Source: Vicinamibacteria bacterium (GTDB lineage: Bacteria > Acidobacteriota > Vicinamibacteria > Fen-336). Taken from it: 33,689 bases of DNA. Location of the stretch: assembly GCA_025923995.1 (NCBI GenBank), contig JAICEW010000027.1, positions 1 through 33,689 on the forward strand. The letters run 5' to 3'. Made by a program: the position numbers and the translations under genes. The notes beneath the pieces were generated by a model. That model searched no databases. It had not been told where the DNA came from and saw nothing but the letters and a program-made list of their open reading frames with translations. Position 1 is the stretch's first letter. Each line of letters begins with the position of its first letter. Positions 2,287 to 30,219 of this stretch are shown piece by piece.

Positions 2287-4935
2287 CTACGGCCGGGTGA
2301 TGAGCACGTTGTCGACCGCCGCCTCCACGAGGCTGGCGCCGGCCGCGTCCGCGGCCTGGAACCGGATGCGCACGGTCTGGCCCGCGAACGCGCTGATGTT
2401 GATCGCCGGCGACGTCGTCACGTAGGCGGCGTCGTCGTTGTTGGCCGCACCGAGCTCCTGGAACACCTGCGTGGTGCCGCCCGAGGAGTTCACGATGAAC
2501 GCGCGGAAGAAGTCGTCGGCCGACGAGTTGGTGCCGTGGGCCAGGTAGAAGCTGAACGTCAGGTTCAGCGTGGCCCCCGCCGGCAGCGTGATCGCCGGCG
2601 ACTGGATGGTGGTGACTCCGCTGTCGATGTCGTGGACACCGGCCGACGCGCCGGCCAGCGGGCCCGTCACGAGCGCGTTCACGCCGCTGGGCGTCGTGCC
2701 CTGCTGCTTGGTGCCGCTCGAGGTGGTCGTCTCCGGGTTGCCGCGCGCCCACTGTCCGGTGGTGGCGGTGTCGGTGCCGAGCGGGTTCGTGATCCAGCCC
2801 GTGCTCGTCTCGAAGGTGTCGCTGTACACCGTGGTCCCGCCGCCGCCCGAGCACGACGCGGGCACGGCGAAGCCGTTCGTCGGTGACAGGCTGTTGGGCC
2901 CGCCGCTGACGGCGTTGCTGCCCAGCCCGAACGCCGCGAACGCGGTCCACATGCGGCAGACGTCCTCGCCGCCGTGGTTGTCGACCGCGGCCTGGATGAT
3001 GCCGTTGCGGATGTCGGTGAAGGCCGGGCTGCAGATCGTGTTCTTCAGCCCCTCGTTCACGTACAGCATCATGCGCTGGTTGCCGGCGCTGCCGTTGGCC
3101 ATGTACAGGTTGGAGCTGAAGCCCCACTGGCTGACGAGGGCCCAGTAGACCTCCCACGCGGCCTGCGCCCAGCGCGAGCCGACGCCGTGCGGGACCGCCG
3201 CGCCGTTGATCGACTGGTAGGTCCAGGTGTTGATGGCGGGGTCCGTGCTGTAGCGCTGCTGCCGGATGCCGACGCCCGTGGTCGGCTGGTTGAGCGCGTA
3301 GGTGCCGATGCCGCGTCCCAGCGTGGCGGTGTCGGTGCCCTTCGCGGTGTACGCGAGCGCCCACCAGTCGGACAGGCCCTCGCCCGCCTGCTGGGTGTTC
3401 CCCAGGCAGCTCACGTTGCTGGGCCCGCCGACCAGGCGGTTGGAGATCCCGTGGCCGTACTCGTGGATGACGATGCCGTTGTCGACGTCGCCGTCCTTGT
3501 CCGGAGTGGGCGCGGTCCAGATGAACATCTGCATGCGCGGGCGCTGGCCGTCGGGCGGCGTTCCGAAGTTCGCGTTGTTGGTGCCGCTGCCGTCCTGGGC
3601 CTCGGCGCGCACGCTGTCGTTGCCCGCACCGCCCTTGCCGTAGTTGTTGACCTGGAAGTTGCCGCCCTGCTCGTCGAACCCGTACTGGTACTGGACGTCG
3701 TGGATGATGTTGTTCCAGTAGAACAGGTTCGTCACCGCGGCCGGACGGTAGGCGCTGGGGGCCTGCGTGAGGTTGAGCGTGAAGTCGAAGCTGAGCCCGC
3801 TGCCGCCGCTGGGGCTCGACCCGGTGTCGGGCGTGTTGTTGGCGTCGACGTCCGTGTAGGCGTGGACGTTGTTGCCCTGGGTGGTCGTGAACTCCGCGCC
3901 GTTCGCCCCGTTGGTGTCGTGCCACCCGAACGGTGACGCGGTCGCGTTCTGCGGGTTGACCTGCAGCGTGCGCCCGTCCGACGGAGGCACCGGCGTCGCG
4001 TGGTTCGGGCTCTCGTTGGGCTGGTTGTAGACGCGGTACTGGTCGGACGCGACCCAGTCGAAGCGGGTCCACACCAGGCCGTCGCTCGCATCCACCACCA
4101 GGTCGTAGTGGTGCTGGCGGTCGGTCGTCTCCACCTGGAAGTTCCAGCCCAGGCGCGCCTCGCCGCGGCGCACCGGCAGCCACACGAGCGCGCCCTCGAT
4201 CGGCGCCAGCGACAGGCCCGCGCCGTCCACGGTCGTCTGCTGGCGGGCGCCCTGGGGCGCCTCGACCACGCGCGGCTCCGCGTCGAGCCTCACGCCCAGG
4301 TGGCGCGCGGCGCCCTGCACGGCGGCGCCCAGGCCCAGCGCGGGCGCGCTGGACGTGATCGACTGGGCGAGATCCGGCACGAACAGGTTGTTGACGCTCA
4401 GGATGCGCCCGTCACGGTTGACGTTCACGTGGAGCTGGCCGTTGTAGACCGGGATGTCGAGGTAGGTCTGGCGCAGGTAGATGTGCGTCGCGCCCGTCAC
4501 GCGCGTGAAGACGACGTCGGTCACCTCGTGGTCCACGACGTCGCCGGGCGTGAGGCCGAGCAGGTCGAGGTTCGCCGGGTCGCCCACGAAGTCGAGCGCG
4601 ACCTTCATCGCGTCCTCCCCGCGCCGCGCGCCCGTCAGGTACGTCGTGAGGCTGGAGACGCTGCGCGTGGTGCCGAACGCGTCGTCGCGCGACAGGTCGA
4701 GGTCCGGCACGCCTGCCAGCGCGCCCGGGAGCGCCACGACCCGGTCCGGGGCCCGGTAGCCGCGGTTGTACTCGATCCGGCGGTCGTAGTTGCGCGCTTC
4801 GTCGGGCAGGGCGTCGGCGTTGCCCGCCGGGAGCGCGTTGACGTCGGTGTGCGTGGGCCGCAGCGCGAGCAGCGCGCCGCCGGCCAGCGCCGTCAAGAGC
4901 ACGCGTCTGGCGAGGCGTGGGAGGGATCGGTTCAT
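2287..4935 (-). CDS. Secreted M36 (fungalysin-type) zinc metalloprotease with C-terminal beta-sandwich domain
   Basis: An 882-residue secreted protease. Residues 1-30 form an Arg-rich signal peptide. A fungalysin/thermolysin-type propeptide region spans roughly 105-270 and includes the stretch IYLRQTYLDIPVYNGQLHVN. The catalytic domain carries the zinc motif HEYGH at 491-495 and the third-ligand motif GEGLSDWW at 518-525, both diagnostic of peptidase family M36. After a short Gly-rich linker near 697-701, residues about 703-882 form a Thr/Ser-rich beta-sandwich typical of extracellular binding modules (YSDTFETSTGW near its start). I chose the ATG at 4935 because GAAAGGAAAG lies at proper spacing and the signal peptide begins there; the frame stays open further upstream. 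The product probably degrades external protein after the propeptide is removed. A sigma-70 promoter lies at 5068-5096 and a hairpin follows the stop. Confidence 0.93.
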   Translation of the reverse strand: MNRSLPRLARRVLLTALAGGALLALRPTHTDVNALPAGNADALPDEARNYDRRIEYNRGYRAPDRVVALPGALAGVPDLDLSRDDAFGTTRSVSSLTTYLTGARRGEDAMKVALDFVGDPANLDLLGLTPGDVVDHEVTDVVFTRVTGATHIYLRQTYLDIPVYNGQLHVNVNRDGRILSVNNLFVPDLAQSITSSAPALGLGAAVQGAARHLGVRLDAEPRVVEAPQGARQQTTVDGAGLSLAPIEGALVWLPVRRGEARLGWNFQVETTDRQHHYDLVVDASDGLVWTRFDWVASDQYRVYNQPNESPNHATPVPPSDGRTLQVNPQNATASPFGWHDTNGANGAEFTTTQGNNVHAYTDVDANNTPDTGSSPSGGSGLSFDFTLNLTQAPSAYRPAAVTNLFYWNNIIHDVQYQYGFDEQGGNFQVNNYGKGGAGNDSVRAEAQDGSGTNNANFGTPPDGQRPRMQMFIWTAPTPDKDGDVDNGIVIHEYGHGISNRLVGGPSNVSCLGNTQQAGEGLSDWWALAYTAKGTDTATLGRGIGTYALNQPTTGVGIRQQRYSTDPAINTWTYQSINGAAVPHGVGSRWAQAAWEVYWALVSQWGFSSNLYMANGSAGNQRMMLYVNEGLKNTICSPAFTDIRNGIIQAAVDNHGGEDVCRMWTAFAAFGLGSNAVSGGPNSLSPTNGFAVPASCSGGGGTTVYSDTFETSTGWITNPLGTDTATTGQWARGNPETTTSSGTKQQGTTPSGVNALVTGPLAGASAGVHDIDSGVTTIQSPAITLPAGATLNLTFSFYLAHGTNSSADDFFRAFIVNSSGGTTQVFQELGAANNDDAAYVTTSPAINISAFAGQTVRIRFQAADAAGASLVEAAVDNVLITRP

Positions 4936-5067
4936 CACACTTTCCTTTCGGTTCGTGTGCCGGAAAGTCCTGTCCCCCCGGCACCCGAAGTGCTCGAGAG
5001 TCATCCCGGCCCGCTCGTGGCGGGAGCGCGGGCACTCGGTGGGCGTTTGACGGCTACGAGGCTAGGC

Positions 5068-5138: not shown

Positions 5139-6395
5139 TCATGGCCGAGCCGCGCGCAGCCCCTCCCCGATGGCGTCCGCCAGCTCCGGGCCGAACCAGG
5201 CCCTGGGCGACTCGCCCGTTCCCGCCCGCACACGCTCGGGCGCGTCGATGTACCCGATGTACCCGTCCGCGAGCGCGACGACCCGCGTCCCCGGCCCGTC
5301 CAGCCACCGACGCGCCGCCAGCGCGGTCGGCTCGCCGGGCACGGCCAGCAGCGTGACGTCCCCGATCGTGAGCACCTCCACGTTCGCGTCCCGCTGCAGC
5401 AGGTGCTGCGCCAGGTTCGAAAGGGGCCGGCGGACGACGAACGGCCGGACCGGCTGGACCTCCACGGCCGGCAGGGCGACGCGGACGCGGGCGAACGCGA
5501 AGCTGGGCTCCGATGGAGCCAGCGCCTGGCTCGCGGCGTCGGCGACTTCGTTGGCCACCCGCTCGCCGGCGGCCGCGATGGCGCCAGCGCCGCGGCCCGG
5601 GATCGCGGCGTCGCCCGCAGCACCCTGAAGGAGGAGCGCGACACCTCCGGACTGCTCGATGCGCCGCATCGCGGCGCCGGGGAAGTCGGCCGAGAGCTCC
5701 AGCGTCGTCCGCGGCTCGAGCGTCGGATGGGCCGCCACCACCGCGACCGTGGCGATGCGCGCGCCGTTCGGCCGCTCGACCAGGACGACGTGGAGCGCGT
5801 CGTCGATCGGCCCGTCGATCGTCGAGCGGTTGGAGGCCCAGTCCGCAATGCGCGTCTGCCGGGTGCGCAGCCGAGCGGGCGCAAGGGCGGTCGCGGCGCG
5901 GCGCACGCTGACCTCCGCCGCACGCACGATCGCGGCGGCGACCTCGGCGCGGTATCGGCCCATGCCGACCGCCTGGGCCAGCCACCGCTCGTCGTAGCCG
6001 CCCACGGAGCTGTGCGTGTGCGTCGCCAGGACCAGGACGGCGTCGAGCCGGAGATCGGCCAGGCGGACCTCGAGGGCGCGCGACAGCGCCTCCGGCACGA
6101 GCACCACGTCCAGGAGCACGACCGCGACGGTCCGCCCGCCCGCGCGCAGGACCAACGCCCGCGCGCGAAGGGGATCGCGCTCGCGCGTGGCCACCGCCTT
6201 CGTCGGCCCATATCCGCCGCGCACGACCGGGAGCGGAGGGGCGAGCGGGGCCGACGCGGCGCCCGCCTCGAGGGGTGCGACCACGCGGAAGGACTGGCGC
6301 ACGACCGGCGCCGTGCGGGACGCGTCCCTCCAGTCGAACAGCAGGACGGCCCAGGCGAGGGCCAGGGCCGCCAGGAGGCGGCGGGCGATCTTCAT
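5139..6395 (-). CDS. Neutral/alkaline ceramidase-like protein, probably not a classical ceramidase
   Basis: A 418-residue protein with an N-terminal hydrophobic helix (about residues 6-20) that is a signal peptide or anchor. The N-terminal fold matches the neutral ceramidase family: THTHSSVGGY at about 125-134 corresponds to the family's zinc-site SHTHSGPGGY, and AAHPTLEP near 221-228 to the next His region. The segment that in ceramidases reads Gly-Asn/Asp-x-Ser-Pro and holds the nucleophilic serine reads GDAAIP here (261-266), so the serine is absent. The protein is also far shorter than the roughly 650-residue enzymes and lacks their C-terminal domain. Its substrate is therefore open. An ATG (6395) immediately follows a possible GTG start (6398); no good ribosome-binding site is seen for either. 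It is divergent from the DUF458 gene at 6457. Confidence 0.8.
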   Translation of the reverse strand: MKIARRLLAALALAWAVLLFDWRDASRTAPVVRQSFRVVAPLEAGAASAPLAPPLPVVRGGYGPTKAVATRERDPLRARALVLRAGGRTVAVVLLDVVLVPEALSRALEVRLADLRLDAVLVLATHTHSSVGGYDERWLAQAVGMGRYRAEVAAAIVRAAEVSVRRAATALAPARLRTRQTRIADWASNRSTIDGPIDDALHVVLVERPNGARIATVAVVAAHPTLEPRTTLELSADFPGAAMRRIEQSGGVALLLQGAAGDAAIPGRGAGAIAAAGERVANEVADAASQALAPSEPSFAFARVRVALPAVEVQPVRPFVVRRPLSNLAQHLLQRDANVEVLTIGDVTLLAVPGEPTALAARRWLDGPGTRVVALADGYIGYIDAPERVRAGTGESPRAWFGPELADAIGEGLRAARP

Positions 6396-6411
6396 CACGC
6401 GCGGGCCAGGA

Positions 6412-6440
6412 TACTATTGAGGGTCCTCCCACCCGGGAGG
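6412..6440 (+). promoter_or_regulatory. Candidate -10 and leader hairpin before the DUF458 gene
   Basis: TACTAT (6412-6417) is a plausible -10 element with only a poor -35 (TCTTCA, 6389-6394). Directly downstream, CCTCCC-ACCC-GGGAGG (6425-6440) is a perfect 6-bp hairpin at the predicted mRNA start. Its 3' arm resembles a Shine-Dalgarno sequence but lies 16 bases from the ATG, which is too far for normal use. Confidence 0.3.
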
Positions 6441-6456
6441 GCACGGGGCTCTAGCC

Positions 6457-6966
6457 ATGTGGAAGACGCTCAACGAGGTCAAGATCGCCGACATCGAGGA
6501 GTTCGTGCGCGAGGCGAGCAAGGACGGCCAGTCCGTCCACATCGGCACCGACTCGCTGCAGTCCGGCCGCGTGACCCAGTTCGTGACGGTCGTGGTGATC
6601 CTGACGCCGCGCCGCGGCGGGCGCGTCGCCTACCGCCGCGACACGGTGCCGCGCATCTCCTCGCTGCGCGAGCGGCTGCTGACCGAGGTCTGGAAGTCGG
6701 TCGAGCTGGGGCTCAAGTTCTCCCCCATCGTCAAGGGCGACCTGACCGTCCACATCGACGCCAACCCGGTCGTCACGCACAAGAGCAGCGCGTACGTGCA
6801 GGAGCTGGTCGGCCTGGTCGTGGGCCAGGGCTTCAAGGCGCTCATCAAGCCCGAGAGCTGGGCCGCGTCGCACACGGCGGACCACGTGGTCCGCACGCGC
6901 GGAAAGCGTCCGCAGGACGACGCCGTGGGCTTGTCCGGCGACGGCCCGTCCCGCAAGTCCCACTAG
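6457..6966 (+). CDS. YkuK/DUF458-family RNase H-like protein
   Basis: A 169-residue cytoplasmic protein matching the DUF458 (Bacillus YkuK-type) family, predicted to have an RNase H-like fold with unknown substrate. Landmarks are HIGTDSLQ near residue 28, the hydrophobic strand FVTVVVIL, VHIDANP near 98-104, and the ending ALIKPESWAASHTADHVVR, where family members carry conserved Lys, Trp and acidic residues. The acidic residues D31 and D101 are candidate metal ligands, by family analogy only. The last 20 residues are polar and probably disordered. The stop codon TAG (6964-6966) overlaps the stop of the convergent peptidase gene within CTAG. It stands alone, divergent from the ceramidase-like gene. 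Confidence 0.85.
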   Translation: MWKTLNEVKIADIEEFVREASKDGQSVHIGTDSLQSGRVTQFVTVVVILTPRRGGRVAYRRDTVPRISSLRERLLTEVWKSVELGLKFSPIVKGDLTVHIDANPVVTHKSSAYVQELVGLVVGQGFKALIKPESWAASHTADHVVRTRGKRPQDDAVGLSGDGPSRKSH

Positions 6967-8582
6967 CGCGGCGGGGACCCTCCCGGCCGCGGGCCGTAGG
7001 CCGGCCGCCACAGCAGCAGCCGATCGTCGGGATCGAGCCTCAGGTCGAGCGGCCGCGCGGGCATGGGCAGCGTGAAGCGCTGGCTGCGCTCGGCGAGCGC
7101 CAGCGTGTGCCGGACCTCGCCTCCGGCCGTCGCCACGGCCACCTCCAGCGGGACCTCGAACGGCCCGCCGTCCTGCAGCTGCTCGATGGCGATCTCGATC
7201 CCCTTGCCGCGATCGATCGACCACCAGTCGGCGCGCAGGACAGGAGCGCCCGTGCGGTCGAGCCACTGGCGCAGGAACGCATCGAGGGAGGGATCGGCGG
7301 CCAGGAGGCGCTGGCGGAACACGTCCAGGCCGATCTCCCGTCCGCGGAAGTCGTCGATCAGCGCGCGCAGCATCGAGAAGAACGCCTCGTCGCCCATGCG
7401 CAGGCGGAGCATGTGGTGGAACCACATCCCCTTCGAGTCCGACAGGTTGTGGTGCGTGGGCGCATCGGCCAGGGACGCGAGGGCCGCGTCGCCGCCCTCG
7501 CGCCAGATGTGGAAGTAGCCGAGCGCGCACTGCAGGGGGTTGTATCCGGGACGCGAGAAGCGCAGGAACTCGTTGCGCGCGCCTTCTCCCTCGAGCGCCT
7601 CGATCGAGAGGACCGCGCCGTACTGCGCGAGCGCCTCGGAGAGCATCTTCGCGCCGGGCCCTTCGCTCCGCACGAGGTTGCCCCACCATCCGTGCGCCGC
7701 CTCGTGCGCGAAGAGCGGCAGGCTGCCGCGCAGGTCGTCCAGGATGGAGGACCTCACCATGATGAAGCCCTGCTCGGAGCCGGCCGCGAAGGCCGCGGAC
7801 TCCGGCACCTCGGCCACGTGGTAGGTCGGGTAGGGGTACGCGCCGAAGCGGCGCTCCATCGCGGCCAGGGCTCCCGCCAGTGCCTCCGCCTGGGCGTCCG
7901 ACGTCGATCGGGAACGGAGCAGGTGGAACGCGATCGAGCGTCCGCCGGCCTCGACCGGCCGGGCCGGCACGAAAGGGGCCGCGACGAAGGAGCGGGCCGC
8001 GGGCGCGTCGACCTGCCAGCGCTCCACGACGCGCGCGCCCTCCTCGCGGCGCTCCACGAGCGCGCCGTTCGACACCGACCTCCAGCCGCGCGGCAGCCGG
8101 AAGGTGGTCGTGCCGGGCGCGGCCGGCGACCCGGGCCCGTCGCTGCCGTCCACGACGGGATACCACCGCTCCACCCACGAGGCGTAGAAGGCGTCGGGGT
8201 TCAGCTGGAGCTGCGACGACTCGGCCGCGCTGGCGAGCGCGAACGCCACGGTGACGCGCTCTCCCTTCGCGCACGGACGCCTCCGTTCGAGACGGGCCCG
8301 CTCCAGCGGTCCCGATGCGTCGAGCGACACGCGAGGGCTCGACCCGCGCGCGTTCACGCGCCGGAAGCGCATGGCGGGCTTGCGTGCGTTGACCGCGAGC
8401 GTCGGCCCCGCCGCGCCCTCGACCTCGCACACCAGCTCGAGCGTGCCCTCGACGCCGAGGCGCTCGCGGGCGGGGTCGACGGTGAGCACCAGGTCCAGGC
8501 GGTCCACCCGCCACGGCTCGGGCGGCGCCCCCGACGCCGGACGGGCGAACACGAGCAGGGTGGCGATCACGGCCAGGCGCAT
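6963..8582 (-). CDS. Secreted M1-type (gluzincin) metallopeptidase
   Basis: A 539-residue protein with a short signal peptide (residues 1-18, ending ASG-A). Residues 20-210 are the beta-rich N-terminal domain of M1 aminopeptidases, and 220 to about 440 the catalytic domain. HEAAHGWWGN lies at 293-302, with the third zinc ligand E316 in SEALAQY exactly 18 residues after the HEXXH motif, as M1 requires. In place of the usual GAMEN exopeptidase motif there is GSEQGFIM near 268, so N-terminal recognition may differ. The SDSKGMWFHHMLR stretch matches the helical region after the active site. The C-terminal 90 residues form a small beta domain. A GGAGGAT element precedes the ATG at good spacing. 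It converges on DUF458 with overlapping stops and is divergent from the AraC regulator. Confidence 0.88.
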   Translation of the reverse strand: MRLAVIATLLVFARPASGAPPEPWRVDRLDLVLTVDPARERLGVEGTLELVCEVEGAAGPTLAVNARKPAMRFRRVNARGSSPRVSLDASGPLERARLERRRPCAKGERVTVAFALASAAESSQLQLNPDAFYASWVERWYPVVDGSDGPGSPAAPGTTTFRLPRGWRSVSNGALVERREEGARVVERWQVDAPAARSFVAAPFVPARPVEAGGRSIAFHLLRSRSTSDAQAEALAGALAAMERRFGAYPYPTYHVAEVPESAAFAAGSEQGFIMVRSSILDDLRGSLPLFAHEAAHGWWGNLVRSEGPGAKMLSEALAQYGAVLSIEALEGEGARNEFLRFSRPGYNPLQCALGYFHIWREGGDAALASLADAPTHHNLSDSKGMWFHHMLRLRMGDEAFFSMLRALIDDFRGREIGLDVFRQRLLAADPSLDAFLRQWLDRTGAPVLRADWWSIDRGKGIEIAIEQLQDGGPFEVPLEVAVATAGGEVRHTLALAERSQRFTLPMPARPLDLRLDPDDRLLLWRPAYGPRPGGSPPR

Positions 8583-8686
8583 CGGGATCCTCCGGGGCCA
8601 GACTGGACCGCGCGGCGTCGCGCGTCTTGAACCGGTCGGCGAACCCGTGCCACCGTGCTAAGTAGAGACAATCGGAGCGTGATCGC

Positions 8687-9478
8687 ATGACGAACACGAA
8701 CGGCCTGGCGGGGATCGAGCTGGCGTCCATGAGCCTGGACGGGGTCGTCCTCTCGGAGACGCTCCACGAGCCGGGCTCCCGCCTGCCGCCCCACGCCCAT
8801 CCCACGCCGTCGCTGTGCCTCGTGCGCCGAGGCGGCTTCCGCGAGCGCTGGCGCGCGGGCGCGGCCGAGCACGTCAGGGGAGACGTGATCTTCCGCGCGG
8901 CCGGCGACGAGCACGAGAACGCCTTCCGCGCGGAGGGGGCCCGCTGCTTCAACGTCGCGTTCGGACCCCGGCTGATCGACCGCCTGCCCGTGCGCGCGAG
9001 CCGCGAGGTGCTGGCCGACCGCCGCGTCGGTGCGATCCTCGCGCAGCTGAGCCGCGAGGTGTCCTCCCGCGAGCCCTCGCCGCTGGTGGCGGAGGGCCTC
9101 CTGCTCCAGGCGCTGGGCGAGGCGTTCCAGCGCGACGCGCCCGCCGGCGGCCGCTGGCTCGAGCGGGTGCGCGAAGCGATCGACGCGCACTTCGACAGGC
9201 CGCTCTCGGTCGCGGGCCTGGCGGCCGAAGCGGGCGTGCATCCCGCGCATCTGTCGCGCGCCTTCCACCGGCGCTTCGGGTCGCCGGTGCGGGCCTACAT
9301 CCGGGAGGCGCGCGTGCGCGCCGCCGCCGATCTCCTGCGACGCTCGAGCCTGACCCTCGCGGACGTCGCCGCCGGCACCGGCTTCGCGGACCAGAGCCAC
9401 CTGACGCGCGTCTTCAAGCAGGTCACCGGCGCCACGCCCGGCCGCTACCGTCGGACCCGGGCGTCGCGCGCGCTCTAG
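8687..9478 (+). CDS. AraC-family transcriptional regulator
   Basis: A 263-residue regulator. Residues 1-100 resemble a cupin-like sensing domain with a His-rich stretch (PPHAHPTPSLCLVRRG) and a later acidic/His stretch (GDEHENAF). Residues 157-258 contain the two helix-turn-helix units of AraC proteins: LSVAGLAAEAGVHPAHLSR, then LADVAAGTGFADQSHLTRVF and the family ending VTGATPGRYRR. GGAG lies about 10 bases before the ATG. The ligand is unknown. Because it is divergent from the M1-type peptidase gene across 104 bp, control of that gene is a reasonable guess, though I see no clear operator there. Its stop overlaps the stop of the PilZ gene within CTAG. Confidence 0.92.
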   Translation: MTNTNGLAGIELASMSLDGVVLSETLHEPGSRLPPHAHPTPSLCLVRRGGFRERWRAGAAEHVRGDVIFRAAGDEHENAFRAEGARCFNVAFGPRLIDRLPVRASREVLADRRVGAILAQLSREVSSREPSPLVAEGLLLQALGEAFQRDAPAGGRWLERVREAIDAHFDRPLSVAGLAAEAGVHPAHLSRAFHRRFGSPVRAYIREARVRAAADLLRRSSLTLADVAAGTGFADQSHLTRVFKQVTGATPGRYRRTRASRAL

Positions 9479-9846
9479 TGCCCGCGGACCGGCGTCGTGC
9501 CCGCCGCCAGCTCGCCCAGGTACTCGCGCAGCATCGCGCGGTCGGCCGAGTGCATCTCGGTGAAGCGCAGGCCCCCGCCGGGCATCACGCCGGTCGGCAT
9601 GGCCCGCGCGTCCTGGCTCCACACCACACGGCCGGTCGCGCGAATGGGCGGCCGGCCGGGCAGCCACAGCACCATCTCCACGTCGGAATCGGGCTTGAGG
9701 CCCGTCTCGGAGCGCACGAACACGCCGCTCTCGCTCACGTTCGTGGTCTGGTCCGAGACGAACATGCGGCCGGTGGACCAGTCCACGCGGATCTCGACGT
9801 CGTGGCGGGGCTCCCTTCGCTGGTCGCGGCCGTTGGAGGCGGTCAT
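9475..9846 (-). CDS. Stand-alone PilZ domain protein (probable cyclic-di-GMP receptor)
   Basis: A 123-residue single-domain protein. It has both elements of the PilZ cyclic-di-GMP site: the RxxxR motif (R10-R14 in RREPR) and the N/DxSxxG motif (N36-V-S38-E-S-G41), followed by beta strands with a GRVVW signature near 70. No other domain or membrane span is present, so it probably acts by binding a partner protein. The ATG at 9846 has no Shine-Dalgarno sequence; the frame stays open to 9897, but the extra residues look non-conserved. Upstream lies a tandem CCCATTGTG repeat. The gene is divergent from the glycosyltransferase at 9927 and convergent with the AraC gene. Confidence 0.88.
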   Translation of the reverse strand: MTASNGRDQRREPRHDVEIRVDWSTGRMFVSDQTTNVSESGVFVRSETGLKPDSDVEMVLWLPGRPPIRATGRVVWSQDARAMPTGVMPGGGLRFTEMHSADRAMLREYLGELAAGTTPVRGH

Positions 9847-9858
9847 GGCGTCGGCAAC

Positions 9859-9878
9859 CCCATTGTGCTCCCATTGTG
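9859..9878. repeat. Tandem 9-bp direct repeat with 11-bp period
   Basis: CCCATTGTG occurs at 9859-9867 and again at 9870-9878, about one helical turn apart, in the gap between the divergent PilZ and glycosyltransferase genes. On the minus strand each copy contains CACAAT, a possible -10 element. It could be a regulator site or chance. Confidence 0.35.
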
Positions 9879-9926
9879 CCCGGTACGGATCGTGCAAAAT
9901 GTCGGCGGGACCGGAGCCTCGACCCG

Positions 9927-10877
9927 ATGCAGAAGCTGATCCTGCGCAACTTCCAGTCGCCGGGCGACATCCTGATGCTGACGGCCGCCGTGCGCGACCT
10001 GCACGCCTGCTACCCTGGGCGCTTCGTGACCGACGTGCGCACGCCGTGCCCGGACCTCTGGCTCCACAACCCGCACCTCACGCCGCTGCGCGAGGACGAC
10101 CCGCAGGTCCAGGTCATCGACTGCCACTATCCGCTGATCGACCGCAGCAACACGGCTCCCTACCACTTCATCCACGGCTTCATCGAGTACTTGAACGAGA
10201 CGCTCGACCTGCAGATCCGGCCCACCCTCTTCAAGGGCGACCTGCACCTGTCCGAGGAGGAGCGCGTCTGGTTCCAGAGAGTGGAGGACGCCAAGGGGAA
10301 CCCGCCGCGCTTCTGGCTCTTCGCCTCGGGCGGCAAGCACGACTACACCATCAAGTGGTGGTCGCCCGCGCGCTACCAGGAGGTGGTCGACCACTTCGAA
10401 GGCCGGCTGGATTTCGTGCAGGTGGGCGAGGACCACCACCATCACCCCGCGCTGGACCGCGTGATCGACTTGCGTGGGCAGACGACGCTGCGCCAGCTCT
10501 TCCGGCTCATGTACCACGCGGAGGGAGCCGTCAGCGCCGTCAGCCTGCTCATGCACCTGGCCGCCGCGGTCGAGACCAAGCCGGGCATGCCGCAGAACCG
10601 CCCGTGCGTCGTGGTCGCCGGCGGGCGCGAGCCCCCGCACTTCACGTTCTACCCGCACCACCAGTTCCTCCACACCGTGGGCGCGCTGCTGTGCTGCGAC
10701 CAGGGGGGCTGCTGGAAGTCGCGCACCTTCCCCCTGGGGGACGGCGACCCCAAGGACCAGGAGCTGTGCATCGACGTGGTCGGGCAGCTCCCCCGCTGCA
10801 TGCACATGATCACGGCGCGCGACGTCATCCATGCGATCGAGCGCTACTACGAGGGCGGAGCGCTGCCTCCCCTCTGA
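9927..10877 (+). CDS. GT9-like (ADP-heptose:LPS heptosyltransferase-type) glycosyltransferase
   Basis: A 316-residue cytoplasmic protein resembling GT9/GT-B enzymes. The N-terminus (ILRNFQSPGDILMLTAAVRDLH) has the GDxLM donor-loop pattern, and later elements are ASGGKHDYTIKWW near 133-145, LRGQTTLRQL near 182-191, and a second Rossmann-like half with LMHLAAA (208-214) and CVVVAGGREPPH (227-238). The C-terminal part carries an unusual cysteine cluster: C256, C257, C262, C281 and C291. I recall a conserved family with this layout, often annotated as heptosyltransferase, but its acceptor is not established. The ATG at 9927 follows GGAG by about 10 bases and begins the conserved region; the frame is open to 9876. 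It is followed by the sigma-54 promoter of the next gene. Confidence 0.8.
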   Translation: MQKLILRNFQSPGDILMLTAAVRDLHACYPGRFVTDVRTPCPDLWLHNPHLTPLREDDPQVQVIDCHYPLIDRSNTAPYHFIHGFIEYLNETLDLQIRPTLFKGDLHLSEEERVWFQRVEDAKGNPPRFWLFASGGKHDYTIKWWSPARYQEVVDHFEGRLDFVQVGEDHHHHPALDRVIDLRGQTTLRQLFRLMYHAEGAVSAVSLLMHLAAAVETKPGMPQNRPCVVVAGGREPPHFTFYPHHQFLHTVGALLCCDQGGCWKSRTFPLGDGDPKDQELCIDVVGQLPRCMHMITARDVIHAIERYYEGGALPPL

Positions 10878-10884
10878 GCCGCCC

Positions 10885-10901
10885 CTGGCACGTCCGTTGC
10901 T
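10885..10901 (+). promoter_or_regulatory. Sigma-54 (RpoN) -24/-12 promoter
   Basis: CTGGCACG-TCCG-TTGCT matches the RpoN consensus YTGGCACG-N4-TTGCW at every defined position, with GG (10887-10888) and GC (10899-10900) separated by the required 10 bases. The expected start near 10912 leaves a leader of about 14 bases that still contains the GGGAGGT ribosome-binding site before the ATG at 10926. An activator site was not identified. Confidence 0.8.
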
Positions 10902-10925
10902 CAAGGAGGTGCCCAGGGAGGTCGC

Positions 10926-11342
10926 ATGAGTCAGTCGGAGAAGCCGCAACCAGTGGATGACGCGACGCGGAGGGAAGAGCGCCGGCAGTTCCTGCGCATG
11001 CTTTCCGGCGGCGTGGCGCTCGCAGGCGTGGGCATGTTGGGCGTAGGGTGCGGCACGTCTCCTACCGGCCCGGACAACGGCTCGAGCGGTTCCAGCACGT
11101 CGTCCCCGGAGTCGAGCGGGGCCTCGTCGAGCTCGAGCGCGACTTCGAGCAGCAGCAGCGCGGGTTCCAGCTCGTCCTCGTCCAGCGCGACGTCGTCGTC
11201 CTCGTCGTCTTCGCGCAACTCCTCGTCGTCGAGCAGCTCGTCCGGCGGCGGCGGTGGCTCGAGCTCCAGCTCGGGCGGCGGTGGCGGAGGCGGCTCGAGC
11301 TCCTCGGGTGGCTCCAGCTCGCTGCGCGCGACGCTGCGCTAG
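10926..11342 (+). CDS. Tat-exported, lipoprotein-like Ser/Gly-rich low-complexity protein
   Basis: A 138-residue protein. Residues 1-18 are polar, then a twin-arginine motif (ERRQFLRML, R19-R20) leads into a hydrophobic core (25-40) and a single Cys at 42. The preceding residues (LGVG-C) make a weak lipobox because the -3 position is Gly, so lipidation is likely but not certain. The mature part, about 96 residues, is almost entirely Ser with Gly blocks and ends SSSLRATLR. Serine is written with a mix of TCG, AGC, TCC and TCT codons, which argues for selection on the protein rather than triplet slippage. Two Shine-Dalgarno sequences (AAGGAGGT and GGGAGGT) precede the ATG. A sigma-54 promoter drives it and a long hairpin ends it, so it is probably a single-gene unit. 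It may be a surface spacer, a glycosylation substrate, or a linker whose partner domain was lost; the function is unknown. Confidence 0.75.
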   Translation: MSQSEKPQPVDDATRREERRQFLRMLSGGVALAGVGMLGVGCGTSPTGPDNGSSGSSTSSPESSGASSSSSATSSSSSAGSSSSSSSATSSSSSSSRNSSSSSSSSGGGGGSSSSSGGGGGGGSSSSGGSSSLRATLR

Positions 11343-11354
11343 CCCTTCCCTCCG

Positions 11355-11409
11355 GTCTCGGGTCGGGACGGGCCGTCTCGTCGCGGGACGGCCCGTCTCG
11401 ACCCGGGAC
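11355..11409 (+). terminator. Long hairpin after the Ser/Gly-rich gene
   Basis: Arms at 11355-11377 and 11387-11409 pair over 23 positions, including two G-U pairs, around a 9-base loop. The inner arm ACGGGCCGTC pairs with GACGGCCCGT. It begins 12 bases after the stop codon. No U-tract follows, so termination is inferred from position and stability. Confidence 0.55.
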
Positions 11410-11435
11410 GAGCGACGCGCGATACCCCTCCCGCC

Positions 11436-11441
11436 TATACT
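11436..11441 (+). promoter_or_regulatory. Candidate -10 element for the helicase gene
   Basis: TATACT lies 21 bases before the ATG at 11457. The -35 region is poor. The predicted leader would be about 9 bases. Confidence 0.35.
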
Positions 11442-11456
11442 CACGGGGATCGCGCA

Positions 11457-13148
11457 ATGTCTGCACGCACCGGATCGGAACGCGCCGGATTTTCGGGCCT
11501 GGGCCTGGGGCCGGCGCTCCTCTCCGTCCTGACCGAGCTGGGCTACGAAGAGCCCACCCCCATCCAGAGGGACTCCGTCCCGCCTCTGCTGGCCGGACGC
11601 GACCTGCTCGGCCAGGCCGCGACCGGCACGGGCAAGACGGCGGCGTTCGCGCTGCCGCTGCTCCAGCGCCTCTTCGCCGAGAAGCAGAAGCGCACCGCTC
11701 CCGCGCTGCTCGTGCTGGTGCCGACGCGCGAGCTGGCCATGCAGGTGGCGGAGGCACTGCACCGGTACGGCCAGAAGCTGGGCGCGCGCGTGCTGCCCAT
11801 CTACGGCGGGCAGTCGCTGGGCCTGCAGTTCCGCGCGCTCGAGCGCGGCGTCGACGCGGTGGTGGCGACCCCGGGCCGCGCCGTCGACCACATCGGCCGC
11901 GGGACGCTCGCGCTCGACGGCGTGCGGGCCGTCGTGCTGGACGAGGCGGACGAGATGCTGGACATGGGCTTCAGCGAGGACCTGGAGGCGATCCTGGACG
12001 CGCTGCCGGAGGAGCGGCAGACGGCCCTCTTCTCCGCGACCCTGCCCAAGCGCATCGTCGCCATCGCGGAGCGGCACCTGCGCACGCCCGTGCGCATCGC
12101 GATCCCCGACGAGCGGCTGGCCAGGGGCGAGGCCCCGCGGGTGCGCCAGGCCGCGTACCTCGTCTCGCGCGCGCACAAGGTGGACGCGCTGGGCCGGATC
12201 CTCGACCACGAGAGCCCCGCCTCCGCCCTCGTGTTCTGCCGCACGCGCAACGAGGTGGAGGAGCTGGCCGAGGCCCTGCGCGCGCACGGCTATCGCGCGG
12301 AGGCGCTGCACGGCGGCCTCTCGCAGAAGGACCGCGACCGCGTGATGAAACGCTTCCGCGACGGCACGGCCGAGCTGCTCCTCGCCACCGACGTGGCCGC
12401 CCGCGGCCTCGACATCGGGCGCGTGTCGCACGTCATCAACTTCGACGTGCCCTCCGCGCCCGAGTCCTACGTGCACCGCATCGGCCGCACCGGCCGCGCG
12501 GGCCGGGAGGGCGCGGCGGTCACGCTGGTGGAGCCGCGCGAGCGGCACCTGCTGCGCAACATCGAGCGCCTCACGGGCCGGCGGCTGGAGCTCAAGCCGG
12601 TGCCCACGGTCGCCGACCTGCGGGCGCGCCAGCTGGAGCACACGCGGGCGACGCTGCGCGAGGCGCTGCTGGCGGGCGGGCTCGAGCCGTTCCAGGCGGT
12701 GGTCGCGTCCCTCGCGCAGGAGTTCGACCTGACCGACGTGGCCGCGGCCGCCGTGAAGCTGGCCCACGGCTCCCGCCCGCTGCCCGAGGGCGCCGACATC
12801 CCCTCGCCCGCGGTCGACGCCGAGCGGCCGAAGCGTGGCGAGGGCTCGCGACGAGGCGCGCGGCCGGACCCGCCGGCGCGTGCTCCCGGCGAGGGGCCGT
12901 TCACGAAGATCTACGTCTCCGCGGGCCAGGCCGCGGGCGTCCGCGCCGCGGACCTCGTGGGCGCCATCACCGGCGAGGCGGGCCTCGACGGCCGCGACGT
13001 CGGCGCGATCGAGATCGCGGAGCGCTTCTCGCTGGTGGACGTGCGCAAGAGCCGCGCGGACGACGTGCTGACCGCGCTGCGCCGCACGCAGATCCGCGGG
13101 CACAAGGTCACGGCCAGCCGCTACCGTCCGCCGCGCGAGAAGCGCTAG
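11457..13148 (+). CDS. DEAD-box ATP-dependent RNA helicase with DbpA-type RNA-binding domain
   Basis: A 563-residue helicase. The motifs occur in order: Q motif PTPIQ (33-37), Walker A ATGTGKT (55-61), PTRELA (89-94), TPGR (138-141), DEAD (162-165), SAT (193-195), ARGLD near 315-319 and HRIGRTGR (340-347). A dimerisation-like helical stretch (about 385-435) and a basic, Pro-rich linker (450-480) precede a DbpA-type RNA-recognition fold at about 481-556 (FTKIYVSAGQAAGVRAADLVG). This layout matches DeaD/CsdA-type helicases that remodel structured RNA in ribosome assembly, cold adaptation and mRNA decay; which of these applies is not shown. The N-terminal Ser/Gly segment before the Q motif is short. 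A weak GGGGAT lies upstream and the likely -10 element is at 11436. The GIY-YIG gene begins 4 bases after its stop. Confidence 0.95.
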   Translation: MSARTGSERAGFSGLGLGPALLSVLTELGYEEPTPIQRDSVPPLLAGRDLLGQAATGTGKTAAFALPLLQRLFAEKQKRTAPALLVLVPTRELAMQVAEALHRYGQKLGARVLPIYGGQSLGLQFRALERGVDAVVATPGRAVDHIGRGTLALDGVRAVVLDEADEMLDMGFSEDLEAILDALPEERQTALFSATLPKRIVAIAERHLRTPVRIAIPDERLARGEAPRVRQAAYLVSRAHKVDALGRILDHESPASALVFCRTRNEVEELAEALRAHGYRAEALHGGLSQKDRDRVMKRFRDGTAELLLATDVAARGLDIGRVSHVINFDVPSAPESYVHRIGRTGRAGREGAAVTLVEPRERHLLRNIERLTGRRLELKPVPTVADLRARQLEHTRATLREALLAGGLEPFQAVVASLAQEFDLTDVAAAAVKLAHGSRPLPEGADIPSPAVDAERPKRGEGSRRGARPDPPARAPGEGPFTKIYVSAGQAAGVRAADLVGAITGEAGLDGRDVGAIEIAERFSLVDVRKSRADDVLTALRRTQIRGHKVTASRYRPPREKR

Positions 13149-26810: not shown

Positions 26811-28280
26811 CTACTTCTTCTTCACACGCGCGCAGGCCCTCTCCTCGCCGGCCGCGCAGCCCTGCTTGAAGAGGGCCGCGGCGCGGACGGGGTCCTGCGA
26901 CGCGGCGGGGCCCGACAGGTGCAGCACCGCGAGGTCGTAGCAGGCGACGCCCACCGCGCCGTCGCACGCCTTCTTGTACAGCTGCGCCGCCTTGCCCACG
27001 TCCTTGGGCACGTACTCGCCGCGCAGCAGGTGGCGGCCCATGCTGTAGCAGTCGGGCGCGCTGCCCCCGGTGCACGACTTGTCGTACAGCTCGAGGGCCT
27101 TGCGGATGTCGCGCCCGACGCCCTCCGCGCGCTCGTACATCGGGCCCAGCTTGGTGCAGGAGCGGAGGTCGCCCCGCTCGCAGCCCTCCTTGTAGAAGCC
27201 CGCGGCCTTGACCATGTCCTTCGCGACGCCGTGGCCGCCGCTGTAGAACGTCCCCAGGTAGAAGCAGCCCCGCAGGTCGCCGCCCGTGCAGCCCTGGCGA
27301 TACAGCGCCGCGGACTGCGCGACGTCCACCGGCATCCCGCGGCCGGCCGCGACCAGCGCGCCCAGCTCGATGCAGCCGCTCGACGCGCCGCCGTCGCACG
27401 CCTTCTTGAACAACTTCCCCGCCTCGGCGTAGTCCTTCTTGACCGGCGGGGTGCCGTTCTGCTGGAAGAGCCCGAGGCTGTAGCAGCCCCAGGGCTCGTC
27501 GCCGGTGCAGGCCTGCTCGTAGAGCGTGGCCGCGCCCTTCAGGTCCTTGGGCGTACCCGCGCCGCGCTCCTTCGCCACCCCGAGCTGGTGGCAGCCCGAC
27601 ATCGCACCCGCGTCGCACGACTTCTGGAAGAGCGCCAAGGCCTTCGCCGGGTCCTTCTTCACCCCCTCGCCCGCGCCGTACATGATCCCCAGCTGCGTGC
27701 AGCTCGAGCCGTCGCCGCCCTCGCACGCCTTCTGGAAGAGCTCGGACGCCTTGACGGGGTCCTTCACCACCACGAGCCCGTCGCGGTGCATGGACGCGAA
27801 GAGGCCGCAGGCGCGCCCGACGCCTTCCGCGCAGCCCTTCTTCAGGAACTCCGCCGACTTGCCCAAGTCCTTCTCGACCTCCTTGCCCGACCAGTACAGC
27901 TCGCCGGCCCGCGTGCAGCCCTCCCCACTGCCCATGTCGCAGGCCCGCTGGAGGTAGGTCGAGGCCTTGACGATGTCCTTGTCGTTGCCCGGGGCCCGGT
28001 GGATCTCGGCCATCTCCAGGCACGACTCGGCGTGGCGGAGGTCGCACGCCTTCTTGAACAGGCCGGTCGCCTTGCCGAGGTCCTTGGCGGCGCCCTGGCC
28101 GCTGCGGTGCATCGTCGCCAGCTTGTGGCAGTCCGCGGCCGCGCCCTTGTCGCAGCTCTTCTTGAGCGACTTCTCGTCCTCCGCCGCGGCGGCGGCGGGA
28201 GCGGCCGCCTTGGGCGCGTCCTGCGCGAGACATGGGGCGGCCAGGAACAGGAATGCGAGGGACCAGCGCATCGAGGCCAT
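26811..28280 (-). CDS. Exported cysteine-rich Sel1-like repeat protein
   Basis: A 489-residue protein with a signal peptide (about 1-20, LAFLFLAAPCLAQ). The mature part is an almost unbroken array of twelve 36-residue Sel1-like helical repeats plus a terminal half repeat. Each begins with a Cys separated by seven residues from a second Cys (CX7C, for example CDKGAAADC), giving thirteen pairs. Helicobacter cysteine-rich proteins have the same pattern, with each pair forming a disulfide that staples a repeat, so a stable periplasmic or secreted scaffold is expected. AGGTGG lies 8 bases before the ATG; a second ATG three codons on is also possible. It starts 26 bp after the HEXXH gene on the same strand, so the two are probably co-transcribed. 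Binding partner unknown. Confidence 0.9.
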   Translation of the reverse strand: MASMRWSLAFLFLAAPCLAQDAPKAAAPAAAAAEDEKSLKKSCDKGAAADCHKLATMHRSGQGAAKDLGKATGLFKKACDLRHAESCLEMAEIHRAPGNDKDIVKASTYLQRACDMGSGEGCTRAGELYWSGKEVEKDLGKSAEFLKKGCAEGVGRACGLFASMHRDGLVVVKDPVKASELFQKACEGGDGSSCTQLGIMYGAGEGVKKDPAKALALFQKSCDAGAMSGCHQLGVAKERGAGTPKDLKGAATLYEQACTGDEPWGCYSLGLFQQNGTPPVKKDYAEAGKLFKKACDGGASSGCIELGALVAAGRGMPVDVAQSAALYRQGCTGGDLRGCFYLGTFYSGGHGVAKDMVKAAGFYKEGCERGDLRSCTKLGPMYERAEGVGRDIRKALELYDKSCTGGSAPDCYSMGRHLLRGEYVPKDVGKAAQLYKKACDGAVGVACYDLAVLHLSGPAASQDPVRAAALFKQGCAAGEERACARVKKK

Positions 28281-28306
28281 GGCGGGACCACCTTTCGAGT
28301 GTGTTC

Positions 28307-29389
28307 TTACCCGAGTTTTCCCCCGGCGTCCACGCTGCCTCCCGGCCGGGCCCGGAGGACCAGGTCCAGCAGCCCAGCGGCCCGGCTGCCCGCCGGCAGG
28401 GCCGCGCGAAGGGCCTCCCCCAGCGGCCCGATGCCCTCGGCCAGGCGCCGGGACCGTGCCGAGGCCGCCTCGCGGTCCTTCGCGGCCGCGAGCCGCCCGG
28501 CCAGCGCCGCGTGGAGCTCCTCGAGAGCGACGTAGATGAGCAGCGCGTGCGTCATCACGGGCACCGGGCGCCTCCGGCCGGTGAGGGGCGACGTGACCTC
28601 CACGTGCTCGCCCGGCAGGCCCTCGAGCGGCTCGTCCCACCACCAGTGCCACAGGCGCTGGTGGTAATACTCGTGCACCAGGCCCTCGGCCAGACCCAGG
28701 GGCGTCTCGTGGAACGGGTTCAGGAAGAGCCCGCCCAGGTACCGCAGGCGCAGGTTGAAGCTGGAGCGGACGGTCCCGAAGTCGGTGGTGAGGACCAGGA
28801 CCGAGAAGCAGCGGCGCACCTCGGCATGGAGGCCCGGGTCGTAGAGCCGCACCAGCTCGAGGGCCTCCTCGACGTCGCCCAGCAGCTCCGCGTCTTCCCT
28901 TGCGGACGGCACGTCCGGGTAGAGGTCCGCACCGAGCAGGTCGCGGAAGAGGCCCGGCCGTGGGAAGTAGACGCGGAGGCCCGACGCGTCCGCCCAGCAG
29001 CCTTCGACCGGCGAAAGCCGCCCCTCGCTCGCGCGGTGGACGCCCGGGGCGCGCGCCGACCGGTGATAGCCGTCCGTCGTCCCCGCGCCCAGGTCGTCCG
29101 AGAGCCCCGCGTGCCATCGCAGCTTGGCGACGAGCGTGTCGCACTGGCTGTCACCCACGAAGCGGGACGCGATCAGGAACGGATAGATCTCGGGGTTGGC
29201 GGACGCGGCGGGCGTGGCCTCCAGCGCGCCGGCGAGCGCCTCGAGGGCCGTCGCGCGCGGCGCGAGGTTCCGGTTGGCCGCGACGTGGCGGCGGAGGATC
29301 TCCGCGGGCAGGCGGGTGCGTCCCTCGTGGAGGCGGTCAGGATGCGCCGCGTCCGAGAACTCGCGCGCGACCGTGTCCAGGAGGTTCAT
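28307..29389 (-). CDS. HEXXH-motif protein resembling peptide beta-hydroxylases (aKG-HExxH / TIGR04267-like)
   Basis: A 360-residue cytoplasmic protein without signal peptide or membrane span. HEYYH lies at 239-243, followed by an unusual Trp-rich stretch (QRLWHWWWDE). About 40 residues later comes SPLTGRRRPVPVMTHALLIYVALEE (about 267-291). The order (helical N-terminus, a strand reading LGGLFLNP before the motif, HEXXH, then a short RP-V-P loop and a helix with a further His, H281) resembles the HEXXH proteins named as RiPP-modifying 2-oxoglutarate-dependent beta-hydroxylases. This is from memory of the family and may be wrong; a zinc protease is the alternative. ATG 29389 is preferred over an upstream ATG at 29437; no strong ribosome-binding site is seen. 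It lies directly upstream of the Cys-rich Sel1 gene. Confidence 0.6.
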   Translation of the reverse strand: MNLLDTVAREFSDAAHPDRLHEGRTRLPAEILRRHVAANRNLAPRATALEALAGALEATPAASANPEIYPFLIASRFVGDSQCDTLVAKLRWHAGLSDDLGAGTTDGYHRSARAPGVHRASEGRLSPVEGCWADASGLRVYFPRPGLFRDLLGADLYPDVPSAREDAELLGDVEEALELVRLYDPGLHAEVRRCFSVLVLTTDFGTVRSSFNLRLRYLGGLFLNPFHETPLGLAEGLVHEYYHQRLWHWWWDEPLEGLPGEHVEVTSPLTGRRRPVPVMTHALLIYVALEELHAALAGRLAAAKDREAASARSRRLAEGIGPLGEALRAALPAGSRAAGLLDLVLRARPGGSVDAGGKLG

Positions 29390-29475: not shown

Positions 29476-30219
29476 ATGCGGGGTCCCCTCTCCCTCGAAG
29501 GCCGCATCGCGCTGGTCACCGGGGCCGCCCGCGGGATCGGCGCGGCCATCGTGCGCGCCTTCGTGGCCGCCGGCGCGCGCGTGGGCGCGCTCGACCGCGA
29601 CCGGGACGGGCTGCGTGCGCTCTGCGAGCCGATGGGCGACGCGGTGCTGCCCATCGCGGCCAACGTCGCCAGCACCGCCGAGGTGGCGGAGGCGACCGCG
29701 CACCTGCTGGACCGCTGGGAGCGCGTCGACATCCTGATCAACAACGCGGGCATCGTGCGCGACGCCACCACCGGGCGCGTCACGGACGAGGACTTCGGGC
29801 TGACGATGAATGTGAACCTGAAGGGCGCCATGGCCTGCGCGCGCGCCGTGGCGCCGGGGATGGTCGCGCGCGGCTACGGGCGCATCGTGTCCGCCAGCTC
29901 GGTGGTGGCCCGCACGGGCAACTACGGCCAGACGGCCTACGCCGCCAGCAAGGGCGGCATCATCGGGATGACGCGGGTGTGGGCGCGCGAGCTGGGCCCC
30001 AAGGGCATCACGGCCAACGTGGTCGCGCCGGGCTTCATCGACACCGAGATGCTGCGCAGCGTCCCGGCCAAGGTGATCGACGAGGCGTGCGCGCGGCTGC
30101 CCGCCCGCCGGCTCGGCCGCCCCGAGGAGGTCGCGAACGTCTACCTGTTCCTGGCCTCGGACTCCGCGGCCTTCGTGAACGGCGCGGTCGTCGGCGTGGA
30201 CGGCGGGCAGCGCCTGTAG
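29476..30219 (+). CDS. Short-chain dehydrogenase/reductase, FabG-like
   Basis: A 247-residue NAD(P)-dependent reductase. Cofactor motif TGAARGIG lies at 15-22 and NNAG at 89-92; the catalytic tetrad is N114, S142, Y155 and K159 (YAASK). The C-terminal half (VAPGFIDTEMLRSVP and RLGRPEEVANVYLFLASDSAAFVNG) matches 3-oxoacyl-ACP reductases (FabG) closely, but no other fatty-acid gene is nearby, so it may act on acyl-CoA or another ketone. Cofactor preference is hinted by the acidic residue after beta-2 (ALDRDRDGL), which favours NAD over NADP; this is inference. The ATG lacks a Shine-Dalgarno sequence. Its stop overlaps the GTG of the next gene (TAGTG), so the two are coupled. Confidence 0.92.
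   Translation: MRGPLSLEGRIALVTGAARGIGAAIVRAFVAAGARVGALDRDRDGLRALCEPMGDAVLPIAANVASTAEVAEATAHLLDRWERVDILINNAGIVRDATTGRVTDEDFGLTMNVNLKGAMACARAVAPGMVARGYGRIVSASSVVARTGNYGQTAYAASKGGIIGMTRVWARELGPKGITANVVAPGFIDTEMLRSVPAKVIDEACARLPARRLGRPEEVANVYLFLASDSAAFVNGAVVGVDGGQRL

Follow-up and report, generated by a model that had tools for sequence, protein, structure and literature searches.

A divergent aKG-HExxH-type peptide beta-hydroxylase-like protein encoded at a variable SDR/Sel1 junction in a Vicinamibacteria bacterium

The HExxH and Sel1 genes and their products

The stretch of DNA analyzed here, called the window throughout, comprises 33,689 nucleotides of a Vicinamibacteria bacterium (contig JAICEW010000027.1). 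Two genes on its minus strand are separated by 26 bp. One (28307..29389) encodes a 360-residue aKG-HExxH-type peptide beta-hydroxylase-like protein, recognized by its similarity to TIGR04267, to ChlH and to a protein of genome G425; the other (26811..28280) encodes a secreted Sel1-repeat protein of 489 residues. On the opposite side of the HExxH gene, after a gap of 86 bp, a divergent gene for a short-chain dehydrogenase (SDR) occupies 29476..30219 on the plus strand. The HExxH protein contains HEYYH at residues 239–243, SP at 267–268, R274-P275 and H281, along with the Trp-rich flank LWHWWWDEP and the segment RPVPVMTHAL. The coordinates, strand, spacing and motifs given in an earlier reading of the DNA made from its sequence only are thus all present. 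Both frames look coding by GC3 (HExxH gene, 0.93; Sel1 gene, 0.98), and the codon-position GC of both genes is typical for the window. No signal peptide is visible in the HExxH protein. Genes for an M36 fungalysin-type and an M1 metallopeptidase are also located on the minus strand of the window (2287-5004 and 6963-8582); they are unrelated to the HExxH protein.

The sequence-only reading had described the Sel1 product as an exported protein with 13 CX7C pairs. This count is exact, with export judged by eye from a signal-peptide-like N-terminus: the protein contains 27 cysteines, of which 26 form the 13 CX7C pairs and one lies in the signal region. The pairs recur every 35–37 residues, and this regular spacing is far from chance given the Pfam Sel1 match (3e-61) over 10 scored repeats. 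HcpC (1OUV) is the best PDB match (E 2.3e-43), consistent with an Hcp-type disulfide-rich solenoid; the repeats of HcpC and HcpB contain conserved disulfides (PMC4746701). The window protein resembles Helicobacter HcpB and HcpC (1KLX, 1OUV) in being a secreted protein built of Sel1 repeats that each carry a CX7C pair, but its array is longer, at 13 pairs, and the likeness does not imply host interaction. A paralogue elsewhere in the same genome is 49% identical and likewise contains 13 CX7C pairs. The Sel1 protein is an ordinary exported scaffold of this disulfide-rich Hcp type, with a probable role in protein binding.

Relationship to the aKG-HExxH family

The earlier assignment of the HExxH protein to the TIGR04267 family was supported by HMM searches. 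TIGR04267 (aKG-HExxH peptide beta-hydroxylase) was the sole NCBIfam match, a borderline one at 40.0 bits against a curated cut-off of 40 bits; in the genome-wide search the score was 42.4 bits. The Pfam search returned no match above cut-off, and neither Pfam nor NCBIfam gave a match to a zinc protease or other peptidase family. When the protein was compared with the PDB by phmmer, ChlH (8s5f) alone was returned (E 0.84), and a profile combining the window protein with its G425 relative again matched this single chain (E 5.8e-5) and no zinc protease. A single-sequence AlphaFold2 model of the HExxH protein reached a pLDDT of 43, which is too poor for use of the fold.

The window protein lines up with ChlH at the HExxH motif, at SP, at RP and at the downstream H. 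H239, E240, H243 and P268 are invariant in a 16-member family alignment; R274 and H281 are not universal. The window protein agrees with ChlH at both of these positions, the equivalents in the G425 relative are V and Q, and H281 is variable across the family, so that the full ligand set is only putative. The published members of the family, Fe(II)/aKG dioxygenases whose fold is zincin-like, act on RiPP precursors by beta-hydroxylation of Asp, His, Phe, Gln or Pro (PMC12636437, PMC13060819), and PflC also performs oxidative backbone cleavage and becomes hydrolytic when the leader peptide is absent (PMC12636437). With the members ChlH/ChlBH, BpmH, PflC/PosC and PesO the window protein shares its match at the cut-off, the ChlH-like arrangement of HExxH, SP, RP and downstream H, and a relative within a RiPP-like cluster; however, it is very divergent (31% identity to the nearest relative found), and its gene adjoins no precursor, radical SAM, MNIO or transporter gene. 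Judged from these matches, the window protein is homologous to the aKG-HExxH family, and its metal use and chemistry would be those of the characterized relatives. The histidines of the HExxH motif would most likely bind Fe(II), and the enzyme would most likely use aKG and O2 to beta-hydroxylate a peptide side chain.

Relatives of the HExxH protein and their gene neighborhoods

The HExxH protein is the only TIGR04267 protein of its own genome, where it is present as a single isolated copy. A relative was found in none of 13 genomes of the same family; several of these are incomplete drafts, which makes single absences weak, but the pattern is consistent. TIGR04267 proteins were present in one of 192 other genomes of the class and in 23 of 395 other genomes sampled evenly across the phylum. 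Scans of genome contigs, scans of viral contigs and a plasmid tblastn search yielded no close relative. Direct protein search identified one clear relative, the G425 protein, which is 31% identical over 254 residues (E 6e-21) and scores 25 bits against TIGR04267, under the cut-off of 40.

The G425 gene (region L028) is located between a precursor-like ORF of 66 residues, which lies upstream on the minus strand (10631-10831), and a downstream gene whose product matches TIGR03975, a RiPP maturation radical SAM C-methyltransferase, with 619 bits. This interval (5828-10831) is a candidate RiPP cluster that also holds a class II aldolase-like protein and a DUF6065 protein; the 66-residue peptide ends in IRIGVVVDF. 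The position of the G425 HExxH gene directly upstream of such a C-methyltransferase resembles rSAM_ocin_1 (TIGR03975) RiPP clusters, whereas the window genome contains no TIGR03975 protein above cut-off, only radical SAM matches below it. The failure of the G425 protein to reach 40 bits in spite of its clear RiPP-like cluster indicates that likely members of the family fall below the TIGR04267 cut-off.

Five further HExxH genes of the phylum (L033, L039, L050, L051 and L092) adjoin either short ORFs that resemble precursors or genes for radical SAM maturases of the cyclophane-forming type, and others have neighbors without an evident RiPP link. L051 (genome G406, 9827-13000) is a clean candidate for a RiPP cluster, in which a tandem pair of HExxH enzymes is encoded after two near-identical peptides of 51 and 52 residues that share ...AGGTCNTCYSSYEPE. 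In L092 (G657, 7650-9208), a His-rich 64-residue ORF lies directly upstream of the gene for a HExxH protein (TIGR04267, 42.5 bits); next come a methyltransferase-like gene and one for an ABC transporter. The HExxH proteins of L034, L036 and L037 belong to one bacterial family and have a conserved neighborhood without an evident RiPP link, their genes being near that of a protein of 88-93 residues (EHFVKFFRQLPGLS...).

At the window HExxH gene, the nearby precursor and partner maturases by which a RiPP cluster would be recognized are missing. In agreement with the sequence-only reading, inspection of the flanks revealed neither a short precursor gene nor one for a radical SAM or LanB protein, and the gaps of 26 and 86 bp leave no space for a precursor ORF.

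A variable SDR/Sel1 junction and the likely role of the HExxH gene

The same divergence of SDR and Sel1 genes that brackets the HExxH gene in the window is found in genomes G004, G006 and G012 and marks a syntenic junction. In G006 and G012 the junction is empty, with about 100 bp between the two genes, and in G004 it holds a gene that visual inspection of its sequence identified as FHA-EAL-like. In the other genomes of the family the Sel1 gene is beside different neighbors. Sel1 relatives (E < 1e-30) are present in 11 of the 13 same-family genomes, as compared with none for the HExxH protein, and a Sel1 gene was found at none of 21 other HExxH regions (L028 and L033-L052, 11-20 kb each). The adjacency on which the earlier pairing of the two genes relied is therefore not kept. 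Retention of Sel1 without HExxH indicates that Sel1 is independent of the HExxH gene, which, at a junction that is empty or otherwise filled in relatives, appears as an accessory occupant. We conclude that the HExxH gene probably came into the lineage as an accessory gene at this variable junction; its GC content does not flag it as foreign, so loss in the relatives rather than gain here may also account for the pattern.

The account that we favor, with a probability of roughly 0.7, is that the encoded enzyme is a divergent orphan of the aKG-HExxH family, that its gene occupies a variable junction and that its substrate is not encoded alongside. Because neither a precursor nor a partner maturase adjoins it, the substrate would be encoded elsewhere or have been lost. 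The window protein would then be a divergent, RiPP-less addition to a young enzyme family. It is unlikely that the gene is instead left over from a RiPP cluster, decaying and no longer active: the 360-codon frame is intact with a strong GC3 bias, and HExxH, SP, RP and H are retained, even if the lack of a precursor or maturase nearby, the lack of TIGR03975 above cut-off in the genome, the single isolated copy and a TIGR04267 score just at cut-off would all fit such decay. Slightly less probable again is a zinc metallopeptidase. HExxH is the motif of zincins, which the family also resembles in fold, and PflC hydrolyzes peptide in the absence of the leader (PMC12636437), but no peptidase match was obtained in Pfam or NCBIfam, ChlH is the only solved relative found, and the near relative in G425 is encoded within a RiPP maturation cluster.

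The sequence-only reading had raised the Sel1 protein as a possible substrate. In such a dedicated two-gene pair, the enzyme would hydroxylate the Sel1 protein before export (for example, at Asp in its CDxG repeats). The same-strand genes, 26 bp apart, are plausibly on one transcript, and Asp residues are numerous in the Sel1 repeats, where their context is regular. This proposal is nevertheless highly improbable, since Sel1 relatives with 8-13 CX7C pairs persist without HExxH in the same family and a 13-pair paralogue exists elsewhere in the genome, Sel1 is absent from all 21 other HExxH regions, the Sel1 protein is exported whereas the HExxH protein lacks a visible signal peptide, and the substrates of characterized members are short RiPP precursors (PMC12636437, PMC13060819). 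Were the pairing real, the family could hydroxylate a whole protein; the relatives argue against this. Equally improbable is the recruitment of an orphan aKG-HExxH enzyme to a large folded-repeat protein, be it the adjacent Sel1 protein or another cellular protein, in place of a short RiPP precursor. If, as we favor, the HExxH gene encodes an orphan enzyme without a substrate gene beside it, the Sel1 gene would be an independent resident of the junction, and its product probably serves outside the cytoplasm as a binding scaffold locked by disulfides.
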